Source: Acidobacteriota bacterium (GTDB lineage: Bacteria; Acidobacteriota; Terriglobia; Terriglobales; Acidobacteriaceae). From it: DNA of 34,761 nucleotides. Below are positions 2,026 to 27,321 of the stretch, piece after piece. The position numbers and the translations under genes are program-made. The first letter of the stretch is position 1; every line of letters starts with the position of its first letter. The notes under the pieces were generated by a model, which saw only the letters and a list, made by a program, of their open reading frames with translations, made no database searches and had not been told where the DNA came from. The stretch is from NCBI GenBank assembly GCA_028876335.1, contig JAGWSG010000056.1, positions 1 through 34,761 on the forward strand, in the 5' to 3' direction.

Positions 2026-3480
2026 TCATACGGAAATATGCTGACTTAGCTCCGCGATTGGTGCGCAAGGAAGCCGCACTTCAATTTCGATCCCGCCTTT
2101 CAACCCGTTAAATGCCGTCAGGTGCCCCGCGTGTGCGTGAACTACAGCATTAACAAATGCAAGCCCCAGACCATGACCTTGCGATTGCTTTCCACGTGTC
2201 CGCTGTTGAAACAGGCTCGGCAATAACTCCGCGTCAAAACCAGGACCATCATCTTGAATTCGCAGAACCGCGCTGCCTTCGTGCTCTTCCAGAAAGATGG
2301 TGATACTTGAACCAGATGGAAGATGCTTCAGCTCATTATCGAATAGATTGGCAAGCATTCGATGCATGAGTCCCTGATCGGCTTTTATCAACAGTGGTCC
2401 TGAAAGACGAAGCCTTACAACCAGCCCTCTTTCTGTCATGGATGGTTCGTAAAGCTCTGCCATGGACCTCACCAGTTGTTCCAGATCTATCACCGTCGGT
2501 GTCAGCCGCAACGCATCGGCCCGCGCTTCCGCCACGTCGAGCGACTCATTGAGCAAGTCTGCAAGGCTATCCAATTCTTCGATCGCAGAGGCAATCGCTT
2601 CCTGACGTTCGCCGTCGTCGGCTTTCACCAGTGATGTCTCCAGCTTGCCGCGAATTGCTGTCAGCGGACTTCTTAAATCATGCGCCAGTGAATCCGTAAT
2701 TGTGTGCAATTGCCGTACCGCATTCTCGATGCGATCGAGCATGTGATTTAAGGTGTACGCCAACTGCGCCATTTCATCATTATTCTCGGATGTGGGAACG
2801 CGCGTCTTTAGATCAAGCTCTCCAATATGAGAAGCAGCTTCCGTTATGCGCCGCACATACCGTAGCGTACGCCGCGTCGCATAGAAGACAATGGCAAATC
2901 CAAGCAAAATGAGTGCAATCCAAAGTGCCAGGAAGCGCACACGCAGATTCTGGATCACCCTCTCCTCGTCACGCACAGAGAGCCCCAGGTACACCCTGCT
3001 GCCATCAGCCAATGTTGTTGAGGCAACACGGAACGGCACGGTAAATCCGTCGACGTGTACGTCAGAAGGCGTGGTTGAATTCCTCCTAAGGCCGTGAATC
3101 GCTTTCAGATCCGCCTGCCCGTCTCCCACACCGACCCAAAGCTTCAGGCTGCCATCAGAACCTGTTTGCAGGAAGAAGACCGAGTCGTTTTGCGAGCTCA
3201 GCGTGGGAGTTCGATTTGGCACTTCTCGCGATGCCAATTCCGCCACTTCGCCAACCACGCGATTGTACAAAGCATCCTTGGGCGTGTGAGCCGCCACATC
3301 GCCCAGGACTTCCACTTCGCCCGTCAACCAGGCGTCGGTACGCTGTTGAATGTCCCTTGCGACAAAACGGTCCAGAAAAAGAAAGATGACGATCGCACCA
3401 AGTGTGTAGGCAAGTGTTGACCATAGTGAAATCCGCCATGCAGCACTGCGCATTCCGGGTCTAGCGGTCTTTGAGAACAT
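2026..3480 (-). CDS. Two-component sensor histidine kinase (HAMP, HisKA, HATPase)
   Basis: The protein has 484 residues and the order typical of membrane sensor kinases. There is a transmembrane helix near residues 19-37, a periplasmic sensor domain of about 145 residues, a second helix near 184-200, HAMP to about 255, then HisKA with the phospho-accepting histidine in SLAHDLRSPLTAI (His267). The ATPase domain follows, with N box (LANLFDNELKHL), G1 (DDGPGFD) and G2 (GHGLGLAFV). ATG at 3480 is chosen because GAGG lies eight bases upstream; a GTG at 3489 is the alternative. The start overlaps the end of the response-regulator gene by 20 bases, so the two are translationally coupled. The periplasmic domain has no motif that reveals the ligand. 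The divergent operon at 4427-11372 is the natural regulatory target, by inference from position. Confidence 0.93.
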   Translation of the reverse strand: MFSKTARPGMRSAAWRISLWSTLAYTLGAIVIFLFLDRFVARDIQQRTDAWLTGEVEVLGDVAAHTPKDALYNRVVGEVAELASREVPNRTPTLSSQNDSVFFLQTGSDGSLKLWVGVGDGQADLKAIHGLRRNSTTPSDVHVDGFTVPFRVASTTLADGSRVYLGLSVRDEERVIQNLRVRFLALWIALILLGFAIVFYATRRTLRYVRRITEAASHIGELDLKTRVPTSENNDEMAQLAYTLNHMLDRIENAVRQLHTITDSLAHDLRSPLTAIRGKLETSLVKADDGERQEAIASAIEELDSLADLLNESLDVAEARADALRLTPTVIDLEQLVRSMAELYEPSMTERGLVVRLRLSGPLLIKADQGLMHRMLANLFDNELKHLPSGSSITIFLEEHEGSAVLRIQDDGPGFDAELLPSLFQQRTRGKQSQGHGLGLAFVNAVVHAHAGHLTAFNGLKGGIEIEVRLPCAPIAELSQHISV

Positions 3481-4138
3481 AGCCCACACCTCGAAGCGTG
3501 CGAATCAGCGGCTGCTGTCCATTTCCATCGACCTTGCCTCGCAGGCGATAGATATGTACATCCACCACATTTGTATCTGGATGAATGCGCATACCCCACA
3601 CCTTTTCGAGAATCATGGTTCGAGTCACCACGCGTCCAGCATTGCGGCACAAATACTCCAGAAGGACGAACTCTTGTGGTGTAAGTTGAAGTCTCTGGCC
3701 ACCCCTGATGGCCTCTCGGCGAAGAAGGTCCAATTCGAGATCGAGCACGCGAAGCCGCGTAGCCTCACTGCCCTGCGGTGCATTCCGTTTGAGCAGATTA
3801 CGCAGCCGCGCAAGCAATTCCGCCAGGGCAAATGGTTTGGTGAGGTAATCGTCTCCTCCTTGCTCAAGCCCTTTTACACGGTCATCCACCGTGCGTCTTG
3901 CTGAAAGGATCAGCACCGGTGCATGTACCCCCATCTGACGCAAGCGCATAATCAGCGCAATGCCATCTCCGTCCGGAAGGCCAAGATCCACAATGAGAAT
4001 GTCGTATTCGCCGGCGAGTGCCAACTGCTCGGCGCTCACTGTATCCGACGCAAGATCAACCGCATAACCAGCCTCAGTAAGTGCCTGCTTCAAGAACGAT
4101 CGAATGTCTTGCTCGTCTTCCACCAGCAGTAGCCGCAT
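3461..4138 (-). CDS. OmpR/PhoB-family response regulator
   Basis: This 225-residue protein has a receiver domain (LLLVEDEQDIRSFL at the start, phospho-acceptor Asp51 in DILIVDLGLPDGDG, conserved Lys in DDYLTKPFA). A winged-helix DNA-binding domain of the OmpR type follows (LTPQEFVLLEYL, then VDVHIYRLRGKVD and LIRTLRGVGYVL). ATG at 4138 is taken as the start; a TTG at 4144 would add two residues. It is the partner of the kinase whose start it overlaps. An 8-bp inverted repeat covers the sequence just upstream of its start (4141-4162), which suggests autoregulation. A role in controlling the divergent operon is inferred from the arrangement. Confidence 0.95.
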   Translation of the reverse strand: MRLLLVEDEQDIRSFLKQALTEAGYAVDLASDTVSAEQLALAGEYDILIVDLGLPDGDGIALIMRLRQMGVHAPVLILSARRTVDDRVKGLEQGGDDYLTKPFALAELLARLRNLLKRNAPQGSEATRLRVLDLELDLLRREAIRGGQRLQLTPQEFVLLEYLCRNAGRVVTRTMILEKVWGMRIHPDTNVVDVHIYRLRGKVDGNGQQPLIRTLRGVGYVLKDR

Positions 4139-4140
4139 GC

Positions 4141-4162
4141 TCAAAATGTTATTGCATTTTGA
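4141..4162. promoter_or_regulatory. Inverted repeat next to the response-regulator start
   Basis: TCAAAATG (4141-4148) and CATTTTGA (4155-4162) are perfect 8-bp arms around six bases. The repeat sits immediately 5' of the response-regulator ATG and spans the place where its ribosome-binding site should be; no good Shine-Dalgarno sequence is visible there. Protein binding or folding here could limit translation or transcription of the regulator. Confidence 0.4.
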
Positions 4163-4330
4163 AAGCTTGCGCAGCGCATCTCGGTATTACCCGTGCCAAA
4201 TCTTGCTCCGTCGACTCAAGATGAATAAATCGTCATTTCCCCGTATATCCCAGTTCATTTTCCGTCTATAACATTGATTCAATCGCAAATTCCCAGGCAT
4301 AAATCGAGCATTTCTCGGTACATGAACGAA

Positions 4331-4350
4331 TTGTCACTAAAGAATGACAA
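4331..4350. promoter_or_regulatory. Inverted repeat TTGTCA-N8-TGACAA, possible operator
   Basis: TTGTCA at 4331-4336 is repeated in inverted form at 4345-4350 (TGACAA), 77 bases upstream of the first operon gene. The TTGTCA half-site could itself act as a -35-like element. It is a candidate binding site for the neighbouring response regulator or another dimeric factor. Confidence 0.35.
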
Positions 4351-4426
4351 CGGCCCCGCTCGCCACTGCGCATAGTTCCGCGTCTCAAAAGCAGCGGATA
4401 TTTGCAACAACTTTGGAGAATAAGGA

Positions 4427-5398
4427 ATGGCAAGGAGTGGTGTGGTCGCAGAAGTGCATAGCATCGATTCAGTCTCGCAGGACTCTCTGGGAGCCGAATT
4501 GTACAGAGCCTACGGCCAAAGCCTCCGGTGCGGATTCAATACCGATCCCGTCCTTCAAAGAACTCTCGCGCACGTACTTGCTCATCCCGGCAGTTTGGCA
4601 CGTCCACGCATGTCAGTTCAGACCGGGTTGGCCTATGGCGCTGAAAGGCAATCGACCTTAGACCTTGCCATCGCGCTGGAGTATTTCCATACAGCATCTC
4701 TGCTATTTGACGATCTGCCCTGCATGGACGACGCTGCGGTGCGCCGGGGTGCTCCATGCGTCCATCGGCTATTCGGTGAACCAGCCGCTATTCTTGCCGC
4801 CTTGACGCTCATCAATCGCGCATATGGCCTTGTATGGTCGGCGTTGCGCACTGTCCCCCTCCAACATCAAGTCAGGGTATTTGAATTTCTGAATGACCGG
4901 CTGGGTGTAAATGGCCTGCTTAACGGGCAGAGTCTCGATCTGAATTTCCAGTCCAGTGCTCGAGACCTTGCGGAAGCTGAGCGGGTTGCGCGCGGTAAAA
5001 CCGTGCCCATGATCGAAATCGCTCTCGTATTGCCGGCTATCCTCGCACAAGCCCCGCAACGTGACATACAACTCCTGCAGAGGCTGAGCCTTTTCTGGGG
5101 ATTGGCCTACCAACTGGCGGACGACCTGAAGGACGTTCTCGCGTCCCAATCTGATACCGGCAAAAGCGCCGAGCGTGATGGCAGGTTGGGAAGACCGAAC
5201 ACGGCATTAGTCATCGGCATACCAGCAGCTGTCGGCCGATTGGGCAGACTCATTCATGCAGGTGACCGATTGATGAATCGACTCATTGCCAAAAGGTCCT
5301 CTCTCAATTTTCTGAACGATTTCCGGACGAGCCTGCTGGATGAGTTAACGAATGCCATTGAAGAGGCAGGAGCGATTCCGATCGACAGAGTCCGATGA
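4427..5398 (+). CDS. Divergent polyprenyl diphosphate synthase (IspA/CrtE-like)
   Basis: The 323-residue protein belongs to the trans-prenyltransferase fold, which extends allylic diphosphates with IPP using Mg2+. The first aspartate motif DDLPCMDD (95-102) is followed by RRGAP, and the second, ADDLKD (231-236), is preceded by AYQL; the KT motif (GKTVPM, 190-195) is kept. Alanine five residues before the first motif (ASLLFDD) is smaller than the tyrosine of FPP synthases and points to a product longer than C15. The usual GGKRLRP block that holds IPP reads PGSLARP (54-60), so the conserved Lys and first Arg are gone. The enzyme may use substrates unusually or have lost IPP condensation. It is first in a tightly packed operon that ends with a YceI isoprenoid-binding protein, which suggests a lipid or quinone-tail role. 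Confidence 0.85.
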   Translation: MARSGVVAEVHSIDSVSQDSLGAELYRAYGQSLRCGFNTDPVLQRTLAHVLAHPGSLARPRMSVQTGLAYGAERQSTLDLAIALEYFHTASLLFDDLPCMDDAAVRRGAPCVHRLFGEPAAILAALTLINRAYGLVWSALRTVPLQHQVRVFEFLNDRLGVNGLLNGQSLDLNFQSSARDLAEAERVARGKTVPMIEIALVLPAILAQAPQRDIQLLQRLSLFWGLAYQLADDLKDVLASQSDTGKSAERDGRLGRPNTALVIGIPAAVGRLGRLIHAGDRLMNRLIAKRSSLNFLNDFRTSLLDELTNAIEEAGAIPIDRVR

Positions 5399-6501
5399 TC
5401 TTTCTCCGCTTGATTGTTGTTAATTTACTCCGGCACAGGATTCGAACTGTCATCAGCATGGCGGGCATCGCCTTCAGCGTCGCGGCCATGCTCACAGTAG
5501 TCGCATTACTACAAGGTGCCATCGGCATGTTTTCCGGGATTCTCTCCAGCGGTGCCGAGATGATTGTCTTTGAACGCAATGTCTCCGATCTTTTCTTCAG
5601 CGACGTCTCTCAGTCTGCTGCGGCAGCCATTGCGAAGTGGCCCATGGTGGAACACGCAGATCCTGTTCTCTTCGGTGTTGTCGCAAGTGAAGGCCATCCC
5701 ATTGTCACCTGCTTTGGAGTAACCGCCACCGATGCGCGCATCCATGACGCACAATGGCTTGCCGGCGGGCCTCAGGACTTCGGCCGCCAGGACAGTGTGG
5801 TGCTTGGTGATCGAGCTGCACAGTTTCTTGGCGCGACCGTCGGGAAACAGGCGCAAATCGGCCATGAAACCTTTACCGTCGTCGGCATTATTCGCACTCG
5901 AAACGGCTTCGAAGACGGCGGTGTTTTCATGCCAATCAATGAGGCCAGGGATTTCTTCCACAAGCAAGGCTCCTCCGTTCTTACTATCAAATTGCGGAAC
6001 AAAGACGACGCCGCGCAATTCAAGGCAGACGTCCATGCACAATTCAAGGACCTCATCGCTCTGGAGGATCGTGAATTCGAACGAACATATTCACAATTCA
6101 GAATTCTGCGCGCGACAGCCTGGGCCGTCGGTATCTGTGGCCTTGCTCTTGGCGGACTTGGCGTTGCCAACACCATGATCATGTCGGTCTTTACGCGCAT
6201 TCGTGAAATTGCGATTCTGCGCGTAAACGGATTCTCTGGCTTTCAGATCGCGGCTGTCATCTTCGGCGAATCGGCTGTTGTTTCAGTTCTTGGAGGCATA
6301 GCGGGCGCAATCCTCGGCGCACTTACTCTCGTAGCACTCAAGCACATACCCGCGCTCGACGGATATGTCGACGGATCGCTTCATCCACTTCTCATGTTCG
6401 GAGTGGTGCTGCTGGCATTGGTCACAGGCATGGCGGGTGCACTTTATCCAACTGCATATGCTATGCGTATTCGCGCAGTGGAGGCACTTCGCTTCGAATG
6501 A
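5395..6501 (+). CDS. ABC transporter permease, FtsX/MacB type
   Basis: The 368-residue protein has the FtsX/LolC/MacB permease plan. An N-terminal helix follows a basic start (IFLRLIVVNLLRHRIRTV, helix about 18-45). A large extracytoplasmic domain of about 200 residues comes next, then three C-terminal helices (about 240-265, 285-315, 335-355). The cytoplasmic loop MSVFTRIREIAILRVNGFS (about 262-280) is the coupling element that contacts the ATPase and is a family signature. Its ATG overlaps the stop of the prenyl synthase by four bases, and the ATPase gene follows with the same overlap. Relatives act in lipoprotein or lipid extraction, peptide or antibiotic efflux, or peptidoglycan hydrolase control. 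No membrane-fusion protein is encoded nearby, so a MacAB-type tripartite pump is not evident. Cargo is unknown; an isoprenoid or a redox-protein component is a context-based guess. Confidence 0.9.
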   Translation: MIFLRLIVVNLLRHRIRTVISMAGIAFSVAAMLTVVALLQGAIGMFSGILSSGAEMIVFERNVSDLFFSDVSQSAAAAIAKWPMVEHADPVLFGVVASEGHPIVTCFGVTATDARIHDAQWLAGGPQDFGRQDSVVLGDRAAQFLGATVGKQAQIGHETFTVVGIIRTRNGFEDGGVFMPINEARDFFHKQGSSVLTIKLRNKDDAAQFKADVHAQFKDLIALEDREFERTYSQFRILRATAWAVGICGLALGGLGVANTMIMSVFTRIREIAILRVNGFSGFQIAAVIFGESAVVSVLGGIAGAILGALTLVALKHIPALDGYVDGSLHPLLMFGVVLLALVTGMAGALYPTAYAMRIRAVEALRFE

Positions 6502-7196
6502 ATACGCATATGTCCAGCACAGCCGTGCTGCCCCCTGCAGCTCGCATGAGCAACCTGTGGAAGAGCTATGAGCAAGGTGCGATTGCCGTCTTGAATGGCG
6601 TCGATCTCGAAGTCAAACAGGCTCAGACCGTCGCCCTGTGCGGCCCTTCCGGTTGCGGAAAGAGCACACTTCTACATATCATCGGCGGGCTTGATCGGCC
6701 CGACCATGGAGAAATTGAAGTGCATGGCAGACCCCTCGATGCAAACCGCAACATGGTGGATTTTCTTCGCCGAGAAGTCGGTTTTATCTTTCAACTTCAC
6801 AACCTTATTCCCGACCTCACACTTGAGGAGAACTGCCTTCTTCCAGCCATCGCGGCAGGCACGCCGAGGCATGCGGCGCTGAAACGCCTTGAAGTCCTTG
6901 CCGAACGGACAGGACTTCAACATCGACTTGGACAGCGAATTCAAAAGCTTTCCGGAGGAGAACGTCAGCGCACAGCCATTTGCCGAGCGCTGATGAATCG
7001 GCCTGCAATGCTCCTGGCGGATGAGCCCACCGGCTCGCTGGATGAACGCTCAAGCCAAGGCGTTTTTGAACTGCTCCTTGAACTGACGCGCACCGAAGGC
7101 GTCACTCTCCTCATGGCGACGCATGATCTAACTCTCGCGCGACGCTGTGACCGCCTGGTCCAAATGCGCGACGGGAGGATTCATGAAGAATCCTGA
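6498..7196 (+). CDS. ABC transporter ATP-binding protein, LolD/MacB type
   Basis: This 232-residue ATPase carries Walker A GPSGCGKST (49-57), Q-loop (FIFQLHNLIPDLT, about 97-109), signature LSGGERQR (151-158), Walker B MLLADEP (171-177) followed by TGSLD, and the switch histidine in MATHD (His209). This is the LolD/MacB/FtsE-like subgroup that pairs with FtsX-type permeases, which agrees with the gene just upstream (ATGA overlap). Two further in-frame ATGs at the N-terminus (residues 5 and 17) leave the exact start a little uncertain; the coupled ATG is preferred. It overlaps the next gene by 14 bases, so the transporter and the redox proteins downstream are probably made together. Confidence 0.93.
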   Translation: MNTHMSSTAVLPPAARMSNLWKSYEQGAIAVLNGVDLEVKQAQTVALCGPSGCGKSTLLHIIGGLDRPDHGEIEVHGRPLDANRNMVDFLRREVGFIFQLHNLIPDLTLEENCLLPAIAAGTPRHAALKRLEVLAERTGLQHRLGQRIQKLSGGERQRTAICRALMNRPAMLLADEPTGSLDERSSQGVFELLLELTRTEGVTLLMATHDLTLARRCDRLVQMRDGRIHEES

Positions 7197-8487
7197 CGCG
7201 AACCCAACCGTCGTTGCACGCCATGCACTCGCATGGCTAGTCTTCGGCAATGCAATTGGTGTTGGTTTGGCGCTGTTGCTGCTCTTGCCGAATCTGAACT
7301 CGCTGCTAGGTGAGTGGACCTATGGCCGTTGGATGATGGTTCATATGAATGTGCTGCTCTACGGCTGGTGCGGCATCCCCATGCTCGGCTTTCTCTTCCA
7401 TACATATGGACTTGAAACAGGTCGCATGTCCCGTTGGACAAGACCGATTGTATGGTTATGGTCTTTGGCGCTGATGATTGGATCCGCCTCCTGGCTCCAG
7501 GGTCATTCAAGCGGCAAACTGTTTTTGGACTGGACAGGTTTTGCACGAATCTTCTTCGTGCTTACGCTGGAGACGCTGTGGATCTTTCTCGTCGCAGCAG
7601 TGTTTTTCGAGTTGCGCGATGGCACAAGTAGCAGCCTGAGAAAAGCATTGCCCCAACTAGCCGGAATCGTCGTCCTCGGCTTCGTCCCGAATGCAATTTA
7701 CTTCGCAACCAATCCCGGACTCTATCCAGCGATCAACCCAAACAGTGGTGGTCCCACCGGTGCCAGTCAACTCGAGTCCACTCTCTCCATTGTTCTCATT
7801 CTGCTTGTAATTCCCTTCGGCATTACAAGCCGGAACCCAAGGCAGAGCCGAATCGCTGGCTTTGCATGGATCATGTTTGCGGCTCAGGCCATATTTTGTG
7901 CATTTCTGGGGCGCGCCGACGCGAGCAATCACCTCCCCTTGCAGTACCTGGGCCTTACAACTTCACTGGTATGGGTACCTCTCATTCCGCTCTACTACAA
8001 CACATTTCGTTGGCGGGAAGAGTCGCGCCGTTGGAGATCGGCCTTTCTTTGGTGGTGGGGTGGCCTGGTAATCACAGGATGCGCTTTTTTCTTCCCCGGC
8101 ATACTCGATAGGTTCAAGTTCACCGACGGCCTCGTTGGACATTCGCTCACGGCCGTAGCCGGCTTCCTCACCGCCTTCCTTATTTTCATCATGGTAGAGC
8201 TGGCCGGACCGCAACATGCCTGGATTTTCAATCGCACCTGGTCCTTCCACGCTTGGAATATGGGTGTCCTCGCTTACGTTCTGTTGATGACGGCTACGGG
8301 TTGGATCGAAAGCGCTGATCCCGCATTCACCATCTCTCCCGGAGGATTGCGAGACGTCCTCTACTTCCTTCGTCTCCTCACCGGTGTTGCCATGCTGGCT
8401 GCCTCCATCGAGTGGCTGCGCAATGCAATGACGCAGAACGCAGATCGAATTGAAGTGGAATCGCTTGTCGGAGCAAAAGCCGCATGA
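7183..8487 (+). CDS. CcoN-like heme-copper oxidase subunit I homologue, apparently without Cu(B) site
   Basis: The 434-residue protein has about 12 hydrophobic helices and aligns by eye with cbb3 oxidase subunit I. YGRWMMVHMNVLLYGW holds His54, placed like the low-spin heme b ligand in helix 2. FTDGLVGHSLTAVAGF, about residues 313-328, corresponds to the helix-10 block FTDWT-GHVHSGALG and keeps one histidine (His320) instead of two. The GHNAVGF histidine and the His-His pair that bind Cu(B) have no counterpart, so oxygen reduction is unlikely. One low-spin heme b could remain. ATG at 7183 is chosen for its GGAGG four bases upstream; a start at 7147 would run deep into the ATPase gene. It is followed by a small membrane protein and a CcoO-like cytochrome, the natural electron partner. 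Function beyond membrane electron transfer is unknown. Confidence 0.75.
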   Translation: MKNPDANPTVVARHALAWLVFGNAIGVGLALLLLLPNLNSLLGEWTYGRWMMVHMNVLLYGWCGIPMLGFLFHTYGLETGRMSRWTRPIVWLWSLALMIGSASWLQGHSSGKLFLDWTGFARIFFVLTLETLWIFLVAAVFFELRDGTSSSLRKALPQLAGIVVLGFVPNAIYFATNPGLYPAINPNSGGPTGASQLESTLSIVLILLVIPFGITSRNPRQSRIAGFAWIMFAAQAIFCAFLGRADASNHLPLQYLGLTTSLVWVPLIPLYYNTFRWREESRRWRSAFLWWWGGLVITGCAFFFPGILDRFKFTDGLVGHSLTAVAGFLTAFLIFIMVELAGPQHAWIFNRTWSFHAWNMGVLAYVLLMTATGWIESADPAFTISPGGLRDVLYFLRLLTGVAMLAASIEWLRNAMTQNADRIEVESLVGAKAA

Positions 8488-8891
8488 CTCGTTCTCTCAT
8501 CATCTCCTACCAATGGCTCACCGGTATTTCCGATTCGGTGACTGGAATTCTCTTGTGCGTAGCTCCTGTGTTTGCGCTGCAATCCATGCGCCTAAGCGCG
8601 CCGGCCGATGCAACCGCCTACATTGCATACATCGGAGCTTTCGTTTTCTCAGTGGGTCTGGCCGGTATTTGTGGCGCGGTCCTCATGCATCGACACGCAC
8701 CTGTCCCCGCGCTTGAAATGGTCTGGATGCTGACAGCGCTCACACGAGCTTCAGTTGCAATTTTTGTTACAAAAGCTGTGCTGATGGGGCAATTAGATCC
8801 CACGTGGATTTACGTCGCTGCGTTCGACGGTCTATGCGTCCTCATCCAGACTGTGGGTTTGCGCATGAGGTGGCTTAAGGATGCGCTCTGA
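8484..8891 (+). CDS. Small four-helix membrane protein, unrecognised
   Basis: This 135-residue protein has four predicted membrane segments (about 7-32, 44-65, 76-100, 106-127) and short loops. It has no cysteine pair and only one histidine region (LMHRHAP, after helix 2), so it is not an obvious heme protein. Its ATG overlaps the stop of the CcoN-like gene by four bases, and its end overlaps the next gene by 11, so it is almost certainly a subunit or assembly partner of the neighbouring redox proteins. I recognise no named family. It resembles in size and layout the small accessory subunits often found with oxidase complexes, which is an inference only. Confidence 0.7.
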   Translation: MTRSLIISYQWLTGISDSVTGILLCVAPVFALQSMRLSAPADATAYIAYIGAFVFSVGLAGICGAVLMHRHAPVPALEMVWMLTALTRASVAIFVTKAVLMGQLDPTWIYVAAFDGLCVLIQTVGLRMRWLKDAL

Positions 8892-10770
8892 GCACAAGGT
8901 ACGCGACTGGCGCGGCGCAATTCTTGTCGCGGCGGTCTACGTCTATTTCCTCATCTTTGCTCAATTCGCATTTCTCGAACTACTCTCCGCAGATGGACTG
9001 CAAGACAATAAACTCAAAGCCGTCATGGCGGCCATGGCCGTCGGCGGCATCCTCTTCAGCCTGCTCACGCCGCGATTGCGCATTATCGCGGATCCCGCCC
9101 GCCGTATCCGTATCGGCTTGATTCTCTCCGCACTTGCGGCAGCGCTCTCCGTAGTCCCGCTCTCTTTCACCGGCGCAATCGCAGTGGCTTTTCTCATCGG
9201 CGCAGGACTCGGAATCGTCACCGTCACACTCGTCACATATCTAGTGGTCTGGTGTGGAGAGCAGGCTTCCATTCTGAAAACCGGCGTGGGTGTCGGAATT
9301 GGCTACCTGATCTGTAATATCCCCGCGGTCTTCACCGCATCCGCAAAACACCAGGCTCTGTTCTCCGCTTTTGTCTTCCTTGCTGTGGCATTCCTCCCGC
9401 TCGCGGACAAAAATCTCCTGGGGCCAACACTACAGTCCGATGCTCCGTCGAAAACGCGACCTTACCTCGCGTTTCCCCTTGTACTCATCGCATTCACCGC
9501 TCTCATCTGGCTGGATTCTTCAGCCTTTTACATCATTCAGCACAGTGGAGTGTTGAAGGCTGGAACTTGGTCCGGCGATTTACGTCTCTGGGCTATTGGT
9601 GCAATCCATTTCGTTTTCGCGATTGCATCAGCATTTCTGCTGCTTAAGAAAAGAATTGCGCTCGTTTTGATTTCGGCATTTGCCTTTCTCGGTTCGGCCT
9701 GTGCTCTGCTCGCACATCCAGCACTGATCCATTCCGCTGCGCTCTTCTACCCAGCCGGCGTATCTCTGTACTCCGTTGCTCTTGTCATTTACCCTTCGTC
9801 CATTTCCTCCCATTACGACTTTGGCAAGCGTGCCCGACAGGCCGGCTGGCTGTATGCGATTGCGGGCTGGATTGGCTCGGCCCTAGGAATCGGCATGGGC
9901 CAGAATCTCGGTCACATTCCAACAACTTTCGTACTTACTGCCGGTGTGTTGGTATCGATCCCTTTGGGCGTTGGCCTTGCCCGCACCGCTCCGCGAGAAG
10001 TTACTCTCCTCGCATTCATCGTCGTCGTGAGCATGGTTGCGCTGCACTTCCTGCCGACTTCAAATCCGGAATACACACAGACCGCCATCGAGCGCGGCAG
10101 ACAAGTCTACATTGAGGAAGGCTGCATCAGTTGCCACTCGCAGTATGTGCGGCCCGGCACGAGCGATGTACTGATGTGGGGTCCGGCTTCCACGCCTGCG
10201 GAGATTCATGCGGAAAAGCCTCCACTGATAGGCAATCGCCGGCAAGGACCTGATCTTTCTGAAGTAGGCCTGCGGCGTTCTTCAACTTGGCTCAAAGAGC
10301 ATCTCATCGCACCACGCACGCTGACCGGCAATTCCATCATGCCCTCCTACGCATATCTCTTTGACGATGGCCGCGGGAATGACCTGGTTGCCTATCTTGC
10401 CAGCCTGCAAAGCGGAGACATCGCCGCGCACCTGGCCGAAGAGCATGCCTGGCGACCTTCCGCATCTGCTGTACGCCAAGCGAGCCTCTCAGAAGGGAAA
10501 CATCTCTATCGAGAAGATTGCGCCACCTGTCATGAAGCGCGTGGCGATGCGCGCGTCTTATGGAGCGATCAATTAAAGCCGCAACCACCTGACTTGTCCC
10601 AGATGCGTCGCAGTTCTGAGAAGCAAGACACACAGTATCTTGCTCAGATCATCAAATTCGGAATTCAGGACACAGATATGCCCGGCCACGAATGGCTGAG
10701 TGATCGACAGGTTGCCTCTCTTTCACTCTGGATTCACGACAACTCATCACAACCGATTGCTAAACATTGA
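8881..10770 (+). CDS. MFS-like transporter fused to CcoO-like and CcoP-like cytochrome c domains
   Basis: The 629-residue protein begins with about 390 residues forming some 12 membrane helices of an MFS-like carrier. It continues with two c-type heme domains on the periplasmic side. The first, about 403-510, is CcoO-like: GRQVYIEEGCISCHSQYVRP with heme site CISCH (415-419), then RQGPDLSEVGLR and the axial Met487 in SIMPSY. The second, about 537-620, is a class I domain like CcoP: CATCH (547-551) and Met600 in DTDMPGHE. In normal cbb3 oxidases CcoO has a single N-terminal anchor; here a whole carrier replaces it. The ATG overlaps the preceding gene by 11 bases. The protein could pass electrons from the CcoN-like neighbour to a periplasmic acceptor, or couple transport to redox state; neither is shown by the sequence. 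Confidence 0.88.
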   Translation: MRSEHKVRDWRGAILVAAVYVYFLIFAQFAFLELLSADGLQDNKLKAVMAAMAVGGILFSLLTPRLRIIADPARRIRIGLILSALAAALSVVPLSFTGAIAVAFLIGAGLGIVTVTLVTYLVVWCGEQASILKTGVGVGIGYLICNIPAVFTASAKHQALFSAFVFLAVAFLPLADKNLLGPTLQSDAPSKTRPYLAFPLVLIAFTALIWLDSSAFYIIQHSGVLKAGTWSGDLRLWAIGAIHFVFAIASAFLLLKKRIALVLISAFAFLGSACALLAHPALIHSAALFYPAGVSLYSVALVIYPSSISSHYDFGKRARQAGWLYAIAGWIGSALGIGMGQNLGHIPTTFVLTAGVLVSIPLGVGLARTAPREVTLLAFIVVVSMVALHFLPTSNPEYTQTAIERGRQVYIEEGCISCHSQYVRPGTSDVLMWGPASTPAEIHAEKPPLIGNRRQGPDLSEVGLRRSSTWLKEHLIAPRTLTGNSIMPSYAYLFDDGRGNDLVAYLASLQSGDIAAHLAEEHAWRPSASAVRQASLSEGKHLYREDCATCHEARGDARVLWSDQLKPQPPDLSQMRRSSEKQDTQYLAQIIKFGIQDTDMPGHEWLSDRQVASLSLWIHDNSSQPIAKH

Positions 10771-10793
10771 ACTCATTGGAAAGGAACCATGCT

Positions 10794-11372
10794 TTGAAAA
10801 AATCTCTTCTTGCCGCTGCAATCGTTATCTCTCTTTCGCTTAGCACAAATGCCCTAGCACAGAAGCACACGTTCGCTGTCGATCCATCCGCCAGCAATAT
10901 CGCATTCTCACTTTCCGGAACCGGGCACGATGTTGAAGGCACCTTCCATGTCACAAGCGGTGAAATCCATTTTGACCCGTCGTCACACTCCCTCTCCGGC
11001 TCCATTGTTGTATCCGCCGCAAGCGGACAAAGCGGCAATGACAGTCGCGATAAGAAGATGCACAATGACGTCCTAGACGTTTCTCACTTCGCTGATGTCA
11101 CCTTTCAGCCGCAAAGCTATCAGGGAACAATCGCACCATCTGGAGACTCGAGCATTCAGGTATCCGGCCAATTCACACTGCATGGAACACCGCACCCCAT
11201 CACCGTTCCCATGCAACTTCACATAGATGCAGGCAAAATTACCGCTAAGGGGAGTTTCATGGTGCCCTACGTGAAGTGGGGATTGAAAAATCCCAGCATC
11301 TTCATCTTGAAGGTTGCGAAGGAAGTCAAAATCGACCTGAATCTTGCGGGCACTGACACGGTTGGCAAATAG
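10794..11372 (+). CDS. YceI-like periplasmic isoprenoid-binding protein
   Basis: The 192-residue protein has a signal peptide (MKKSLLAAAIVISLSLSTNA, cleavage near LAQ-KH) and a YceI lipocalin-like barrel. The family markers are the start FAVDPSASNIAFSLSGTG, the block KMHNDVLDVSHFADVTFQ, and the FTLHGTPHPITVP strand. YceI proteins of known structure hold a polyisoprenoid or quinone-like chain in the barrel. TTG at 10794 is preferred because GGAAAGGA lies eight bases upstream and it begins the signal peptide exactly; an in-frame TTG at 10767 is the longer alternative. The nearby ATG at 10789 is out of frame. It is the last gene of the operon that starts with a prenyl synthase, so a carrier for that product is a reasonable inference. 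Confidence 0.92.
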   Translation: MKKSLLAAAIVISLSLSTNALAQKHTFAVDPSASNIAFSLSGTGHDVEGTFHVTSGEIHFDPSSHSLSGSIVVSAASGQSGNDSRDKKMHNDVLDVSHFADVTFQPQSYQGTIAPSGDSSIQVSGQFTLHGTPHPITVPMQLHIDAGKITAKGSFMVPYVKWGLKNPSIFILKVAKEVKIDLNLAGTDTVGK

Positions 11373-11428: not shown

Positions 11429-13966
11429 TCATAATCCCGTATAGATCTCAAAGGGCGCCCAGTAAAAAGGCTGTTTGAAATTGCCTTTGGAGTGCAGTAA
11501 TGTCAGCTTCGCCTGTCGCAATGCCTGCGCTGGTGATTGACCTACCGCGAGTCCACCGTAAAGCGAATTCATCAGTTGCGGAGTCGATGTATCGCTTACT
11601 TCCCACAAGGCTCCAATCACGTTGTGCGCGCCGGCGCGCAAAAATGCCCATGACAACCCAACAAGGCCCTCTCCCGCATACGAGCGGTCGCCGCTCCCAT
11701 AGCAGGCCGACACCGTCACAAGACGCGCGCGGATGTGGTGTTGCGTAATCTCGCGCGCATAGAGCTTAAAATTTCCATTCGCTTTACCGCTATTGGGAGA
11801 AAGAATGATGGCTGACTCCAGAGGATCAGTACTGCTCGCCGTTCCATGAGCCACAAAATGGATATAGCCATACTGCGCTGGATGACTGGCAAGATATGCG
11901 TCCGGTGTTGCGGACTTTTCCGCCAGCACAGTGCGCGCTCCTGCGGCAAAATGGCTCTCCACTTCATGCATTTCTCGCATTGCCATGGGCAACTGGGGAT
12001 AATTCGGATCGTCTGAAATAGCATCGCCAATCAACAACAGTTTGCCGCCCGTTGCATCCGGCCGTTCGGTAGAGGCCAGCAGAAGTTGCAACGACGGTGC
12101 CGATGTGAGCGTAGCGTCCTCTATGTAAAAGTGAGAGGGCGAGCCCGGCACAACCAGCGTCTCAAAATTCAGCAGGTTGAGCGCGCCATCTCCAAGAATC
12201 ACCACGTTGCCATCATGCGGAATAATCGATGCCGCTGGCGCAATCAACATCCGGTACAGAGCTTCACCGTCGCCTGTTGTTGAGCTGGCTGTATCTTCCG
12301 GACCAAGAAGTTCTCTCCTATAGCGCGCCACAAGATCTGCAATCTTTGCGCGAGGCGGCAGCGTAAAGAACGCAGTCTCGGCCGGTGTTGCAACCCAAAG
12401 ATACGACTGCGTGGCGCCTAGCCAGTAGAAGAGCAGCGTTGCATGTGCGCGCCGTGCAATCGCCGAGGCATCCAGCGAATGCACGGCGCTCAAGGATGCA
12501 CTTTTTGCCGACGTATCGATTCCCAGTCCCTGCTCAAGTGTGCGGGCGCGGCTCTGATCTGCCACCGAAAGTGCTTCTGCTGTCTCTCCCTTCTCAATCA
12601 GAAAATGGATATAGCTGTCATAAATTCCGGCTGCGTTTGCAAGAAATGGAAGCTTGGAGTCTTCTCTTTGCAATTGATTTCGCGCCGACTCGAAGATGGA
12701 AAGCGCCGCTTGAAATGCCTGCCTTGTGCGGCTGCCGTCACCGCTTGTTTCGTAGAGCCGGGCAAGCTCATACTGCGCCTCAAGCCGCATGGAGGTCTGA
12801 CTGTTGGGATCGGAGATCACCTGATGAAAAATTGCTTCTGCCGCGGAATTCTGATGTTGTTCTGCAGCCAGCCGTCCACGTGCAATTGCCACCGCAAGCT
12901 TGTCTAGTCGGTTATCTCCGGCGTCAATCAAAGGAGCGAGTAGGTTCAGATACTGTTCACTTCTCTTCAAGTCGCCCGCATCGAGCGAGACGTAGGCAAG
13001 CCCTTCCAAGGCATTCACTATATTCTGCTTGTCGCCAGTCTTTTCAGATAGCTGATAGGCGCGCTGCAGTGAATCGCGTGCACGATTGAGGTCTCCCGTA
13101 TCGTGATAGGCAAGGCTTGCTGTGGAAAGCCAGACTATCGCATCGTCCAGATCTCCGAGGGCAACGGCACGGCTCTGCGCTTTCGCGTACAGTGCGAGCG
13201 CCACCCTGGGTTCACCAAGTTTGTAATGCGCCCACCCCAGATTCCCAAGGTTATTAACCAGGATGTCTCCGGCATCCAGGGTTTCTGCGATCTTATCGGA
13301 AGCATTCAGCCAATCGATCGCATCATCGAAGTGCTCCTGCATCAGCGAAACTCCGCCCAGATTCATGAAAGAAGCGGCTTCTTCGAAACGATTGCCATAA
13401 TGCTGTGACCACTCAAGACACTGCGCAAAATAGCGGCGGGCATCATCGATCTGTCCACGCTGAATCGCCAATCCGGCGCGAGCGCGAATCAACTCGCCGC
13501 AGGACTCAATGCGCTTCGCCGCGCACAAACTCTCTCCAACAGAGAGTTGTTTCTCGGCCGCGTCAAACTGATTTAGGTGAGAATAGGCCTGAGCCAGCAG
13601 TGCGTGGTGTTCGATCTTGATTGTCGGGCTGGCCGATGAAGGATCTGGAAATGTCAATGCCTGAAGCGCTTCATCACTGGTTCCGCGCCAGATTGCTGCA
13701 CGCGCCTCAAGAATTCTGAAGCGCGCCTTCCAATCCTGCTCGTTGTCAGGAAGTGTCTCCACAACCAGGCCAGCCAGCCGTTGACTCTCTTGCAGTTGGC
13801 CCCGCTCAAAAAGCCTGTGAATCTCCCTATACCGATCTGCTATCGTCCGAGTCGGCGCATCGCTCAGAAACACGAACGGAACGAGCAGCAAACAGAAGGC
13901 AATTAGGGCTTTGTATGTCCGTTGATGATGGTGTCTGAAGCCGTTACCATTCCGCCGGCGATGCAA
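11429..13966 (-). CDS. TPR-CHAT cysteine protease
   Basis: About 845 residues: a basic N-terminus and one membrane helix (ALIAFCLLLVPFVFLSD, about 20-36), then roughly a dozen TPR-like helical repeats, then a C-terminal CHAT domain, a caspase/separase-fold protease. The catalytic pair is visible as YIHFVAHGT (His707) and VTVSACYGSG (Cys755). The block AFLRAGAHNVIGALWEVSD is also typical. The frame is open to 14152, but that would overlap the upstream gene by 250 bases, so a TTG at 13966 (basic residues then the helix) is preferred; the start is uncertain. The helix suggests membrane anchoring with TPR and protease either cytoplasmic or exported. Genes for an anti-sigma and an ECF sigma factor lie upstream on the same strand, so proteolytic control of sigma release is a plausible role. 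Confidence 0.85.
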   Translation of the reverse strand: MHRRRNGNGFRHHHQRTYKALIAFCLLLVPFVFLSDAPTRTIADRYREIHRLFERGQLQESQRLAGLVVETLPDNEQDWKARFRILEARAAIWRGTSDEALQALTFPDPSSASPTIKIEHHALLAQAYSHLNQFDAAEKQLSVGESLCAAKRIESCGELIRARAGLAIQRGQIDDARRYFAQCLEWSQHYGNRFEEAASFMNLGGVSLMQEHFDDAIDWLNASDKIAETLDAGDILVNNLGNLGWAHYKLGEPRVALALYAKAQSRAVALGDLDDAIVWLSTASLAYHDTGDLNRARDSLQRAYQLSEKTGDKQNIVNALEGLAYVSLDAGDLKRSEQYLNLLAPLIDAGDNRLDKLAVAIARGRLAAEQHQNSAAEAIFHQVISDPNSQTSMRLEAQYELARLYETSGDGSRTRQAFQAALSIFESARNQLQREDSKLPFLANAAGIYDSYIHFLIEKGETAEALSVADQSRARTLEQGLGIDTSAKSASLSAVHSLDASAIARRAHATLLFYWLGATQSYLWVATPAETAFFTLPPRAKIADLVARYRRELLGPEDTASSTTGDGEALYRMLIAPAASIIPHDGNVVILGDGALNLLNFETLVVPGSPSHFYIEDATLTSAPSLQLLLASTERPDATGGKLLLIGDAISDDPNYPQLPMAMREMHEVESHFAAGARTVLAEKSATPDAYLASHPAQYGYIHFVAHGTASSTDPLESAIILSPNSGKANGNFKLYAREITQHHIRARLVTVSACYGSGDRSYAGEGLVGLSWAFLRAGAHNVIGALWEVSDTSTPQLMNSLYGGLAVGQSPAQALRQAKLTLLHSKGNFKQPFYWAPFEIYTGL

Positions 13967-14748
13967 CCCATCTGTATTTCCACCATCTTCATTTGAATCT
14001 CGGTCTGCTGCGGAATGCGGGTTCCCGGAAGAAAATCGCGCTGTGTGAGGGAAAAGCCCGCCAAATGAATCAACCCAAAATCCGGCACGTCGATTACGTT
14101 GCCAGAAACGGTTCCAAAGCGCACTCCCTCGATTTTGTTCACTAGCGAACATTCAACCGGTTCCACATTCTCCTGGTCGCGTGGAATTTGATTGTAACGC
14201 CCAGCGAGTTTGGCGGAGATTCCCTCATGCCGGTGAACAGCCTCGCAGTGCCTTGCCGCATTTTCAAGAAAATGCGGATGCCGCGTGTACGGCATATCAT
14301 CGACCGGCTTACTCCCGAAAAAGTTCAAATTGAGATCTGTGCATATCGGATCACCGGCAATACAAAAGTTCTCATAGCGCGTTCCAAGGAATGTCACCTT
14401 GGGGACATAACCCTTAAGCGGGTGCTCCATACTGATTTGCGCCACAATCCTGTCTGCGGTCACTACGTCAAGAATGTTCAATCCTTCAACAACCGCCGTC
14501 ACGAGCGTGGTCCATCCATGGCCTGGCTTCGGGTCGGGGTTGCCTGACACCTGTGTATAGGCAGAGCGAAAAGAGCAGACATTCTCAAGCCGGAACCCGC
14601 TTGAACGCTGGGCTCCGTAACCACCCTTAAAGTGGAGTTTTACGTAAGCCTGTGAACCCACATCTTGGGCAAGGGGGTGCTCAAATGAGCCGCCGAAAAC
14701 ATGCGCTTCCGCATGATATTCATGATGACGCTTCATTTCTTCTGACAT
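13903..14748 (-). CDS. Unrecognised 281-residue protein between anti-sigma and CHAT genes
   Basis: The protein starts MSEEMKRHHEYHAEAHVFGG (six histidines among the first 20 residues), has no signal peptide or membrane helix, and seems to be soluble. It alternates short hydrophobic strands, for example TTLVTAVVEGLNILDVVTAD and YVPKVTFLGTRYENFCIAGD, and looks mainly beta. I know no family match. It lies 36 bases after the anti-sigma gene and its end overlaps the likely start of the CHAT gene by about 64 bases, so the three are probably one operon. Being next to a TPR-CHAT protease, it is a candidate substrate, sensor or toxin-like effector of that protease; this is inference from position alone. 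Confidence 0.75.
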   Translation of the reverse strand: MSEEMKRHHEYHAEAHVFGGSFEHPLAQDVGSQAYVKLHFKGGYGAQRSSGFRLENVCSFRSAYTQVSGNPDPKPGHGWTTLVTAVVEGLNILDVVTADRIVAQISMEHPLKGYVPKVTFLGTRYENFCIAGDPICTDLNLNFFGSKPVDDMPYTRHPHFLENAARHCEAVHRHEGISAKLAGRYNQIPRDQENVEPVECSLVNKIEGVRFGTVSGNVIDVPDFGLIHLAGFSLTQRDFLPGTRIPQQTEIQMKMVEIQMGCIAGGMVTASDTIINGHTKP

Positions 14749-17840: not shown

Positions 17841-18027
17841 CTTCCGTCCTCCCACGGTCCGGCAAGATCATGCGTTCGAGAGGATAGTGCGAAAGTCGGC
17901 CTCGGCGTTTCATGTGAATTAAAACTTTCTTGCCGCTACAGGAATCACTTTGGAAATCGTGCTACGCTGGGAGCCAAAGCCACCTATCCAAAGACAAATC
18001 CGGCACCGCAGCCTCTATGATGAGCGC

Positions 18028-19305
18028 ATGGCCTTGGCAAATTGGCTCACTCGTTGCGGCACATTGTTGGCGTTTCTCGCTCTTTCCGTGGGAGCCTCGA
18101 CCGTTGCGGCGCAGTCACCTCTCCGTGATTTCCGCCAACAATTTGATTCCCAACTCACTCGCCACAATATCGTCGGCGGGGCGTTCGCCTTTGTGAATAG
18201 CTCCAGGCCGCCAACAGAATTTCTGCATGGCTCGATGAACACGATCAGTCGCCAGGCAATCGACCGCGAAACTGCCTATAACTGGGCTTCCATCACCAAG
18301 ACCTTCACTGCCATCGCCATTCTGCAATTGCGTGACCGTGGGTTGCTCAAACTCGACGACCCCGTGGTGCACTATGTTCCTGAGGTATCAGCTGTGCATG
18401 ATGCCTACGGATCTATCGGTGACATCACCATCCGCAACTTGCTCACTCACAGCGCAGGTTTTCGCAATCCAACCTGGCCCTGGGATTGTGACGACGCGAA
18501 AGATTGCTCATGGCAACCCTTTGAGCCAACCAAATGGTCCCAAATTGTCGCCATGCTGCCCTATACCCACGTTGCATTTAAGCCCGGCAGCCGTTGGAGT
18601 TACTCCAACCTCGGCTACGTCTTTCTCGGTCAAGTCATCGAGCGGCTCAGCGGTGACGATTTTGAAGTCTACATCGACAAGAACATCCTCAAACCTCTCG
18701 GCATGACCGAGAGCTACTTTGACAGAGCCCCCTATTTCCTTGAGTCGCATGTCTCCTCCAGCTATCTGCGCGCCGGGATGACTCTTACTCCCCAGCCCTT
18801 CAACTTCGACACCGGCATCACCACCTCCAACAGCGGCTTGAAGGCTCCCATCACCAACATGGAAAAATACCTGCGCTTCCTCATCGGCGAACCTGGCAAC
18901 TCACGCTATGAAATGGTTCTAAAGCGCAGCTCCCTTCAGGAAGCCTGGAAGGGTGAAGTCCCCATTACAGAATCGGGCGAAACCGCAACTGCCTACACTG
19001 CCACCGCAGGTCAGGCGCAGCCCATGATGGGCCTTGGCTTCTTCGTCCTCAGCACGGGCACGCGCACCTTCATCTATCACGACGGTGATCAGGGCGGCTT
19101 TTCCTCGGAACTCATGATCGACCCTGCAGACAAATGCGCCAGTGTGCTTATCGTCAACACCACCGACGCTGGACAATCGGAATCCACAACCCACGCCGTT
19201 CCAAATACCGAGCCTGATAGCCAAACTGATCTGCGCCTCGCCCTGCGCCTCGAGTTGATGACACACGTCTATCCCGCATGTGGCGCAGTACACTCCAGCC
19301 ATTGA
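18028..19305 (+). CDS. Secreted class C beta-lactamase-fold serine hydrolase
   Basis: The 425-residue protein starts with a signal peptide (MALANWLTRCGTLLAFLALS, cleavage near VAA-QS), which fixes the start at 18028 rather than 17950. It holds the three motifs of the serine beta-lactamase/DD-peptidase (class C, EstB-like) superfamily: SITK (Ser88, Lys91), the YSN triad (192-194) and HDG (351-353, in place of KTG). Members of this large family hydrolyse beta-lactams, D-amino-acid peptides or esters; the HxG form is common in the esterase and D-aminopeptidase branches. Resistance to beta-lactams cannot be claimed. The gene stands alone; the neighbouring TSUP transporter gene follows after 35 bases but is unrelated in function. 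Confidence 0.92.
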   Translation: MALANWLTRCGTLLAFLALSVGASTVAAQSPLRDFRQQFDSQLTRHNIVGGAFAFVNSSRPPTEFLHGSMNTISRQAIDRETAYNWASITKTFTAIAILQLRDRGLLKLDDPVVHYVPEVSAVHDAYGSIGDITIRNLLTHSAGFRNPTWPWDCDDAKDCSWQPFEPTKWSQIVAMLPYTHVAFKPGSRWSYSNLGYVFLGQVIERLSGDDFEVYIDKNILKPLGMTESYFDRAPYFLESHVSSSYLRAGMTLTPQPFNFDTGITTSNSGLKAPITNMEKYLRFLIGEPGNSRYEMVLKRSSLQEAWKGEVPITESGETATAYTATAGQAQPMMGLGFFVLSTGTRTFIYHDGDQGGFSSELMIDPADKCASVLIVNTTDAGQSESTTHAVPNTEPDSQTDLRLALRLELMTHVYPACGAVHSSH

Positions 19306-19340
19306 GGCCCCGTATACTTAAATTTCTCGCTTAGGCGCTC

Positions 19341-23908: not shown

Positions 23909-23949
23909 CTTTGCGTTACTCCGCACACCCGCAAACAATCCTGCAGTCA

Positions 23950-27222: not shown

Positions 27223-27321
27223 GAACTCTCCGGCCCGGATGCGCTGGCATTCAGACTGACGTATGAACGCGATGGAAGGTTTACGCAGGAAATGCTGGGA
27301 AGCTTCGTCGTACACTCAGGC

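Follow-up and report, generated by a model that had tools for sequence, protein, structure and literature searches.

A YceI lipocalin is genetically tied to a b-type membrane cytochrome in the BcnA-LcoA-PsrA system, where a cytochrome b561 gene is linked to bcnA in lipid-peroxyl defence, and in most YceI structures the ligand is an octaprenyl compound or ubiquinone-8 (PMC9113575). Here we compare this and other described systems with a nine-gene locus on a window of 34,761 nucleotides (the whole stretch of DNA analysed, contig JAGWSG010000056.1 of assembly GCA_028876335.1, from an Acidobacteriota bacterium of the Acidobacteriaceae). We read the locus, tentatively and at slightly less than an even chance, as an envelope redox module derived from a C-family haem-copper oxidase, tied to isoprenoids through its YceI lipocalin and working like the BcnA-LcoA antioxidant pair. 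At the level of sequence and structural model, the set comprises a C-family oxidase-like b-type protein whose Cu(B) site is not intact, a fusion of a major facilitator superfamily (MFS) permease with CcoO and cytochrome c, a dedicated isoprenyl synthase, YceI, and a two-component system with a conserved palindrome in the promoter that it shares with the operon, and in most lineages seen a Lol/MacB-type ATP-binding cassette (ABC) pair is part of it. The gene set is real, conserved and apparently undescribed.

The locus departs from the BcnA-LcoA-PsrA system in that its b-type partner has a haem-copper-oxidase fold and not that of b561, no b561 match being found among the nine proteins in Pfam or NCBIfam, and in that it adds the synthase, the ABC pair, the fusion and a two-component system of its own. 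With cbb3 oxidases it shares a CcoN fold, the helix II histidine, the first helix X histidine and a CcoO domain that has both the anchor helix and haem c, whereas its Cu(B) site is not intact, its CcoO is fused to an MFS permease, and neither a diheme CcoP nor a PF00115 match is present. MamX/MamZ/MamH likewise joins an MFS permease to a redox domain and has cytochrome c partners, but MamZ carries a YedZ-like (ferric-reductase-like) domain in place of CcoO, and YceI and a synthase are not among the parts described in the available portion of the source (PMC3905215). As with LolCDE and MacB, a MacB_PCD/FtsX permease and a LolD-like ATPase could pass a lipid on to a carrier in the periplasm, although the operon has one permease, its scores fall below the family cut-offs, and the ABC genes are undetected in some lineages. 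The regulator resembles those of CusRS, HprRS and AgrR in belonging to the OmpR family and in having a 16-bp inverted repeat of 6-4-6 layout at its own promoter; it differs in scoring below NCBIfam cut-offs, in its pairing with a kinase that lacks a conserved metal-ligand cluster, and in its unrelated target operon. By the features tested the module is a member of neither the YceI-cytochrome b561 family nor the oxidases, while it would work like the former. The original prediction knew of no described system with this gene set, and keyword searches of the open PubMed Central library showed none among the papers that they listed (other papers and preprints lay outside these searches).

Conservation of the gene set

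Seven plus-strand genes overlap by 4, 4, 14, 4 and 11 bases with a 23-base gap before the last, and the kinase and regulator genes run divergently from them on the minus strand. The original prediction had treated the seven as one translationally coupled unit; the overlaps and gap were reproduced when the reading frames were recomputed, and gene order and strand are unchanged at 15 other loci of the genus, where the overlaps are mostly -4, -4, -8 to -26, -4 and -11/-14, and YceI follows at 11 to 28 bases or at -4 (script-picked start codons differ in a few cases). The same order with similar overlaps in 15 other same-genus genomes argues that the layout is more than chance. At one locus (L033) the CcoN-like gene is broken by a 70-base run of N.

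The relatives surveyed were 60 genomes, 36 of the same genus and 24 outside it. The ABC permease gene is found in 16 of the 60 and the fusion gene in the same 16, and together with the CcoN-like gene they form a set in these 16 of the 36 same-genus genomes. The CcoN-like gene itself occurs in 17 of the 60, all of the same genus, the copy in genome G032 being a fragment with stops. The other 20 same-genus genomes hold no intact set of the three genes, and in the 24 genomes outside the genus all three were undetected at the thresholds used. Taken by itself, the regulator is present in 19 genomes, namely the 16 plus G032, G014 and G034.

Beyond the genus, searching the contigs of GTDB genomes with a CcoN-like profile gave 79 distinct loci from the best 80 of 83 matches, 51 of Acidobacteriaceae type (a set that shares some contigs with the same-genus loci) and 28 others. 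Among these best 80 of 83 matches the 28 are mostly Verrucomicrobiota, with one Methylacidiphilaceae bin, and include one Bdellovibrionales, one Thermoanaerobaculia and one other Acidobacteriota bin. The six genes from synthase to fusion are collinear in 48 of the 51 Acidobacteriaceae-type loci, the remaining three lying on short or end-cut contigs; YceI is present in 45 of the 51, and the kinase and regulator lie within the flank in 38, the pair at L036 being merely distantly similar. At L080, L081 and L098 YceI stands upstream on the opposite strand and not at the operon end, the gene being present though its place moves.

Nine Verrucomicrobiota loci (L084, L088, L097, L099, L102, L105, L106, L109 and L112) carry the whole set in one direction, with YceI, synthase, permease, ATPase, CcoN-like protein, small membrane protein, MFS, cytochrome, regulator and kinase; gene order deviates at L100. 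L111 and L166-L168 keep YceI, synthase, CcoN-like protein, small protein and MFS/cytochrome with the ABC permease undetected, and L092, whose contig ends 542 bases before the synthase, keeps the core with neither ABC permease nor YceI detected; the profiles used for these far loci were derived partly from the same loci they were run against. Full-length CcoN-like matches occur in 8 of 396 Acidobacteriota genomes (E <= 2e-90; two with one in-frame TGA), and 13 of the 396 match at <= 1e-3, the extra five being weak partial matches and that in G091 a true CcoN. In the phylum of L084, 20 of 387 genomes match. Absence of the gene set from relatives, which the original prediction had named as its own point of failure, was looked for, and what was found is recurrence within the genus and across phyla.

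Two side observations concern this distribution. L068 is labelled Rhodanobacteraceae and its copy is Acidobacteriaceae-like (52%), perhaps a misplaced contig. A search for partner genes at the far loci gave a single cluster, a metallo-beta-lactamase-fold hydrolase near the cassette at seven far loci in two phyla (L085, L086, L089, L092, L094, L095 and L108), grouped by BLAST cluster with Pfam Lactamase_B_2 checked for L085, L092 and L095; it is not in the window, and the other frame clusters were antisense or overlapping.

The oxidase-fold protein and the fusion

The gene at 7183-8487 (+) encodes the CcoN-like protein, which in its structural model has the full haem-copper-oxidase fold of C-family subunit I, an assignment based on fold and profile-profile comparison. 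No Pfam or NCBIfam family matched at E 0.1, PF00115 included, and a PDB sequence search with the profile was weak: its two CcoN hits stood at E 0.29 and 2.5, and an unrelated protein that binds chlorophyll ranked between the two at E 1. Residues were counted in 79 rows, the window plus 78 of the 79 loci (the short L113 was excluded, L083 is truncated by a contig end, and L100 has masked letters). The helix II histidine is kept in 78 of 78 readable rows and the first helix X histidine in 77 of 77, whereas the helix VI stretch 188-206, where a Cu(B) histidine would lie, is without histidine in 78 of the 79, and the protein is therefore not a cbb3 oxidase. Nor is the full set of three Cu(B) histidines (one from helix VI, a His-His pair from helix VII) present, the pair being variable and reading N-H in the window. 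The second helix X histidine, a low-spin haem ligand, is found in 25 of 26 readable non-Acidobacteriaceae rows; the cbb3 low-spin pair that it makes with the helix II histidine is incomplete in the window. Q196 and E198 occur in all 52 Acidobacteriaceae-type rows and in none of the others, and the branch that has them is the same branch that is without the second helix X histidine, a lineage-specific change in the region of the haem pocket.

The original prediction had set its proposal against a standard cbb3 oxidase with Cu(B), and that enzyme is ruled out by the Cu(B) residues. The same residue ground disposes of the cytochrome c-dependent nitric oxide reductase (cNOR) and its quinol-dependent counterpart (qNOR), as the FeB ligands, three histidines and a glutamate, are not found. 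A helix VII S-H-H motif was considered as the Cu(B) histidine pair and rejected, the alignments placing the pair of CcoN a few residues earlier on non-histidine residues; residues 245-249 are poorly modelled (predicted local distance difference test, pLDDT, under 50), and the S-H-H argument was not used alone. No match to ccoN (TIGR00780) was obtained in the organism's own genome, which is 91% complete; three COX1 proteins are encoded elsewhere in it on other contigs, and COX1 is also present in all five far genomes searched.

The electron-transfer partner encoded at 8881-10770 (+) had been described in the original prediction as an MFS-cytochrome c fusion, which holds and can be sharpened to a 12-helix MFS permease (residues 1-370), a whole CcoO, with the anchor helix of a cbb3 CcoO subunit at about 371-390 and its haem c domain, and a second cytochrome c. 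FixO (CcoO) matches at 1e-29 together with Cytochrom_C, the PDB chains 9g6b_B/3mk7_B at 3e-19, and MFS_1 below threshold (23.9 of 33.4 bits); at E 0.01, 8 of 16 relatives match MFS_1. Across 24 aligned rows the two c-type haem sites and their methionine ligands do not vary (alignments A4, of 34 rows, and A5, of 24, were selected from those available). The CcoO-like part is a separate gene in L084 and L090, and one genome holds a second, contig-cut copy of the fusion at 56% identity (G017:C35:13-1308). MFS copper importers are known for cbb3 oxidases, CcoA bearing the copper motifs MxxxM and HxxxM (PMC5829832). These motifs are missing from helices 7 and 8, respectively, in 24 of 24 rows, with MxxxM at other places in 4 of the 24, and a CcoA-type copper importer was rejected for the MFS part on this ground.

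Between these two genes, 8484-8891 (+) encodes a small membrane protein with four hydrophobic stretches by hydropathy, conserved in far loci. It has no Pfam or NCBIfam match at cut-off, the nearest being DUF7268 at a sub-threshold E of 0.047, and a profile search gave no PDB relative.

Isoprenoid genes and promoter palindrome

The operon opens with a trans-isoprenyl diphosphate synthase of short-chain type (4427-5398, +; PF00348 1e-38). Both DDxxxxD and DDxxD are present in 71 of 71 full-length relatives and in the window (3 of 74 sequences, being cut, were excluded from the alignment). The residue at -5 to the first aspartate-rich motif (FARM) is alanine in 70 of the 71 and serine in one, and a two-residue FARM insertion is present. 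Alanine or serine at -5 plus the insertion is what we take, from the chain-length rule, to be the type II geranylgeranyl diphosphate (GGPP) synthase pattern, and a product of C20 or longer is therefore likely as predicted from the sequence. The best-scoring solved relatives in PDB, of farnesyl diphosphate (FPP)/GGPP type, are mostly annotated as farnesyl-type geranyltranstransferases. The operon synthase is the third copy in the genome; of the other two, one has tyrosine at -5 (FPP type) and one is without the insertion.

A MacB/LolC-like ABC permease follows (5395-6501, +; MacB_PCD 6e-24, FtsX 2e-13), with PDB matches that include LolC at 3e-7 and MacB at 9e-7 and a score of 79 bits against the LolCE cut-off of 362; it stands as one permease where Lol has the LolC/LolE pair. 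Its LolD-like ATPase (6498-7196, +) scores 217.5 bits to TIGR02211, below the 307.75 cut-off. The last gene (10794-11372, +) begins at TTG and encodes a YceI lipocalin with an N-terminal hydrophobic leader (PF04264 4e-25), whose best PDB match is the YceI-like BcnA, 5ixh, at 1e-6.

Upstream and divergent lie a sensor histidine kinase (2026-3489, -; HisKA, HATPase_c, HAMP), CopS/CusS/HprS-like by family score, and an OmpR-family response regulator (3461-4144, -; Response_reg plus Trans_reg_C) of CopR/CusR/HprR class by the same measure. The top-scoring models, though sub-threshold, are those of heavy-metal CopS/CopR: TIGR01386 at 195 bits under a 292.55 cut-off for the kinase, and TIGR01387 at 241 bits under 279.2 for the regulator, whose orthologues share 79-85% identity. 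When 16 regulator-synthase gaps were aligned, two conserved blocks of the form ATGAAC-N4-[CT]GTCAT emerged, which in the window are the putative regulator boxes at 4221-4236 (+), ATGAATAAATCGTCAT, and 4322-4337 (+), ATGAACGAATTGTCAC. Copies within three mismatches of ATGAACNAATNGTCAT number at least one in 16 of 16 promoters and two in 13 of them. The exact pattern ATGAANNAATNGTCAY has two matches in the genome (3.84 Mb, 91% complete), both in this promoter, and a reversed control has none; the count covers exact matches, and looser copies may lie elsewhere. Two boxes together did not arise in any of 100 shuffled versions of the window.

The more general ATGA-N8-TCAT was counted in 47 of the 51 Acidobacteriaceae-type loci (three were too near a contig end and one was without a synthase), where 59 copies fall in the 24.3 kb before the synthase against 9 in 805.7 kb elsewhere, at least one being present in 40 of 47 loci and at least two in 19. 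Of 23 other loci, nine have the palindrome ATGAA-N6-TTCAT 607-686 bases ahead of the synthase and two have it about 1300 ahead; in 12, some at contig ends, it was not seen there. In L093 and L097 this palindrome lies about 60 bases before the YceI gene. A 6-4-6 layout is also that of the AgrR box, ATKACANNNNTGTMAT (PMC7380067), and the E. coli regulators of copper (CusR) and H2O2 (HprR) share one common recognition sequence (PMC8249747). Control of the operon by the adjacent two-component system, as the original prediction proposed, is made likely by this conserved palindrome in the shared promoter, judged as a putative box from its sequence.

Where the regulator occurs without the cassette, L034 and L164 keep YceI within 6 kb. 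At L164 (2888-4869) a box lies about 95 bases before the gene of a flavin adenine dinucleotide (FAD) protein, which belongs by a sub-threshold score (99 bits, cut-off 158.8) to the geranylgeranyl reductase superfamily, and YceI follows in tandem; this arrangement suggests that the isoprenoid theme recurs there in a different way. L034 holds a decayed copy (3426-5939) in which the two-component system, the small membrane protein and YceI survive beside a CcoN-like fragment with stops; its 12-kb contig showed no synthase, ABC pair or fusion.

Weighing the readings

Under the antioxidant reading, the synthase would furnish a lipid or quinol with its prenyl chain, and the ABC pair would lift the lipid from the inner membrane and hand it to the YceI carrier. 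The haems of CcoO and cytochrome c and that of the CcoN-like protein would pass electrons between a periplasmic cytochrome c and the carried isoprenoid or membrane pool. Kept reduced, the isoprenoid would quench envelope oxidants, as proposed for the BcnA lipocalin and cytochrome b561 LcoA, and the regulator would switch the set on under oxidant or metal stress. We infer this chemistry from a combination of observations. Speaking for the reading are the co-occurrence of permease and fusion in the same genomes of the genus, the cross-phylum recurrence, the retention of a core where no ABC permease is detected, the absence of the helix VI histidine, the invariant c-type haem sites, the known YceI ligands, the regulator class, and the YceI genes kept by L034 and L164. 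The original prediction had also let the operon make an isoprenoid lipid or quinone-like carrier, moved by the ABC pump and YceI and used in electron transfer to or from periplasmic cytochromes; it is borne out in part, for the unit, its conservation, its likely control and the departure from a standard oxidase, while a lipid product and a role in respiration are conjectural.

Several findings weigh the other way. All 51 Acidobacteriaceae-type rows that could be read, that of the window among them, have L, F or I at the place of the second helix X histidine, a change that may affect the number of haems in this branch; the published BcnA system includes no MFS permease; and no prenyltransferase or quinone-making gene is recognised in the cassette. 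No conserved cluster of His, Met or Cys places was found in the periplasmic part of 39 related kinases, and family resemblance of the kinase does not give the signal; a copper-sensing kinase is still a candidate. Thirteen of the 51 loci are without the two-component pair, of which seven have more than 6 kb upstream and six are near contig ends, and no YceI was found near L079 or L073. At L165, which has the regulator and no cassette, no YceI was recognised, a YceI-like-looking neighbour having no Pfam match and not being counted.

A bolder version, which we consider doubtful, is that an oxidase branch lacking Cu(B) became a lipid-redox enzyme that, with the MFS-fused CcoO, delivers electrons of periplasmic cytochrome c to an isoprenoid made by the operon and carried by YceI, as a self-contained, regulator-controlled circuit for envelope antioxidant defence or repair in Verrucomicrobiota, Acidobacteriota and perhaps Bdellovibrionota. 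If the envelope redox reading holds, the main oxygen-reducing enzyme fold would serve other redox work without its copper site, and a single operon would furnish YceI lipocalins with biosynthesis, a pump for loading and a donor of electrons, with the isoprenoid carrier role directly testable in the cultured Terriglobus roseus DSM 18391 (L078) and Edaphobacter modestus DSM 18101 (L063).

The leading alternative, an unlikely one, is that the complex is a quinol:cytochrome c oxidoreductase, in line with the respiratory idea of the original prediction: the CcoN-like b haem would oxidise menaquinol, and the electrons would reach periplasmic cytochromes by way of CcoO and the second cytochrome c, bypassing complex III. 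The b-type fold and two c haems are encoded side by side, and true oxidases elsewhere in the genome could accept the electrons. In C-family oxidases, however, electrons run from c to b and not the reverse; the lipocalin, synthase, ABC pair, MFS part and regulator class would be left unexplained, and presence in so few genomes of either phylum is patchy for such a role. The antioxidant reading is preferred over this respiratory one because a lipid radical, as a high-potential acceptor, is easier than menaquinone to reduce at c-haem potentials.

Quite unlikely, too, is a complex for redox transport of iron or copper, analogous to MamX/MamZ/MamH, in which the MFS part moves the metal or a chelate, the haems set its oxidation state and sensing is of the CusR class. 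The fusion of an MFS permease to redox domains and the regulator class fit such a complex, as does the iron oxidoreductase/transport role proposed for the MamZ architecture (PMC3905215). The kinase has a histidine at the membrane edge, H40, the only His/Met/Cys place conserved in more than half of its relatives (29 of 39; D in the window), but it has no conserved metal cluster, the CcoA motifs are missing from helices 7 and 8 throughout, and synthase and lipocalin remain unexplained.

We regard as very improbable a reductase of oxygen or NO that has degenerated yet still works, through a changed non-haem metal site that in the Acidobacteriaceae may consist of E198 with H249/H250. In cNOR the FeB glutamate lies four residues after the helix VI histidine, and one of three alignments puts E198 at just that distance from the helix VI place; the other two locate it at 192 and 191, which leaves six or seven residues to E198. 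The invariance of E198 within the family, the commonness of the S-H-H motif at 248-250 and the kept first helix X histidine agree with a reductase, yet H249 is found in 46 of 52 rows and H250 in 37 of 52, residue 249 is N in the window, no row outside the family has E198, two alignments place the His-His of CcoN on non-histidine residues, and PF00115 is unmatched. That the genes are factors for assembly, copper loading or haem supply of true oxidases, with the MFS part as a CcoA and the synthase serving farnesylation of haem O/A, has the slimmest chance: several oxidase-related parts do share one operon and cbb3 oxidases do have MFS copper importers (PMC5829832), but the CcoA motifs are missing, the COX1 genes lie on other contigs and accompany the cassette in all five far genomes searched, and with TIGR00780 unmatched in the 91% complete genome no cbb3 oxidase was seen that could be assembled.

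Of the neighbouring genes, a TPR-CHAT protein (11429-14152, -) stands directly beyond the operon and is unmatched in 16 same-genus loci. At 17950-20177 (+) a protein of Beta-lactamase fold (PF00144) adjoins a TauE/SafE exporter, and 21776-27315 (-) holds a 1121-amino-acid outer-membrane barrel protein that bears a carboxypeptidase-regulatory domain; the protein beside it, of 724 amino acids, has no Pfam match at 1e-5.

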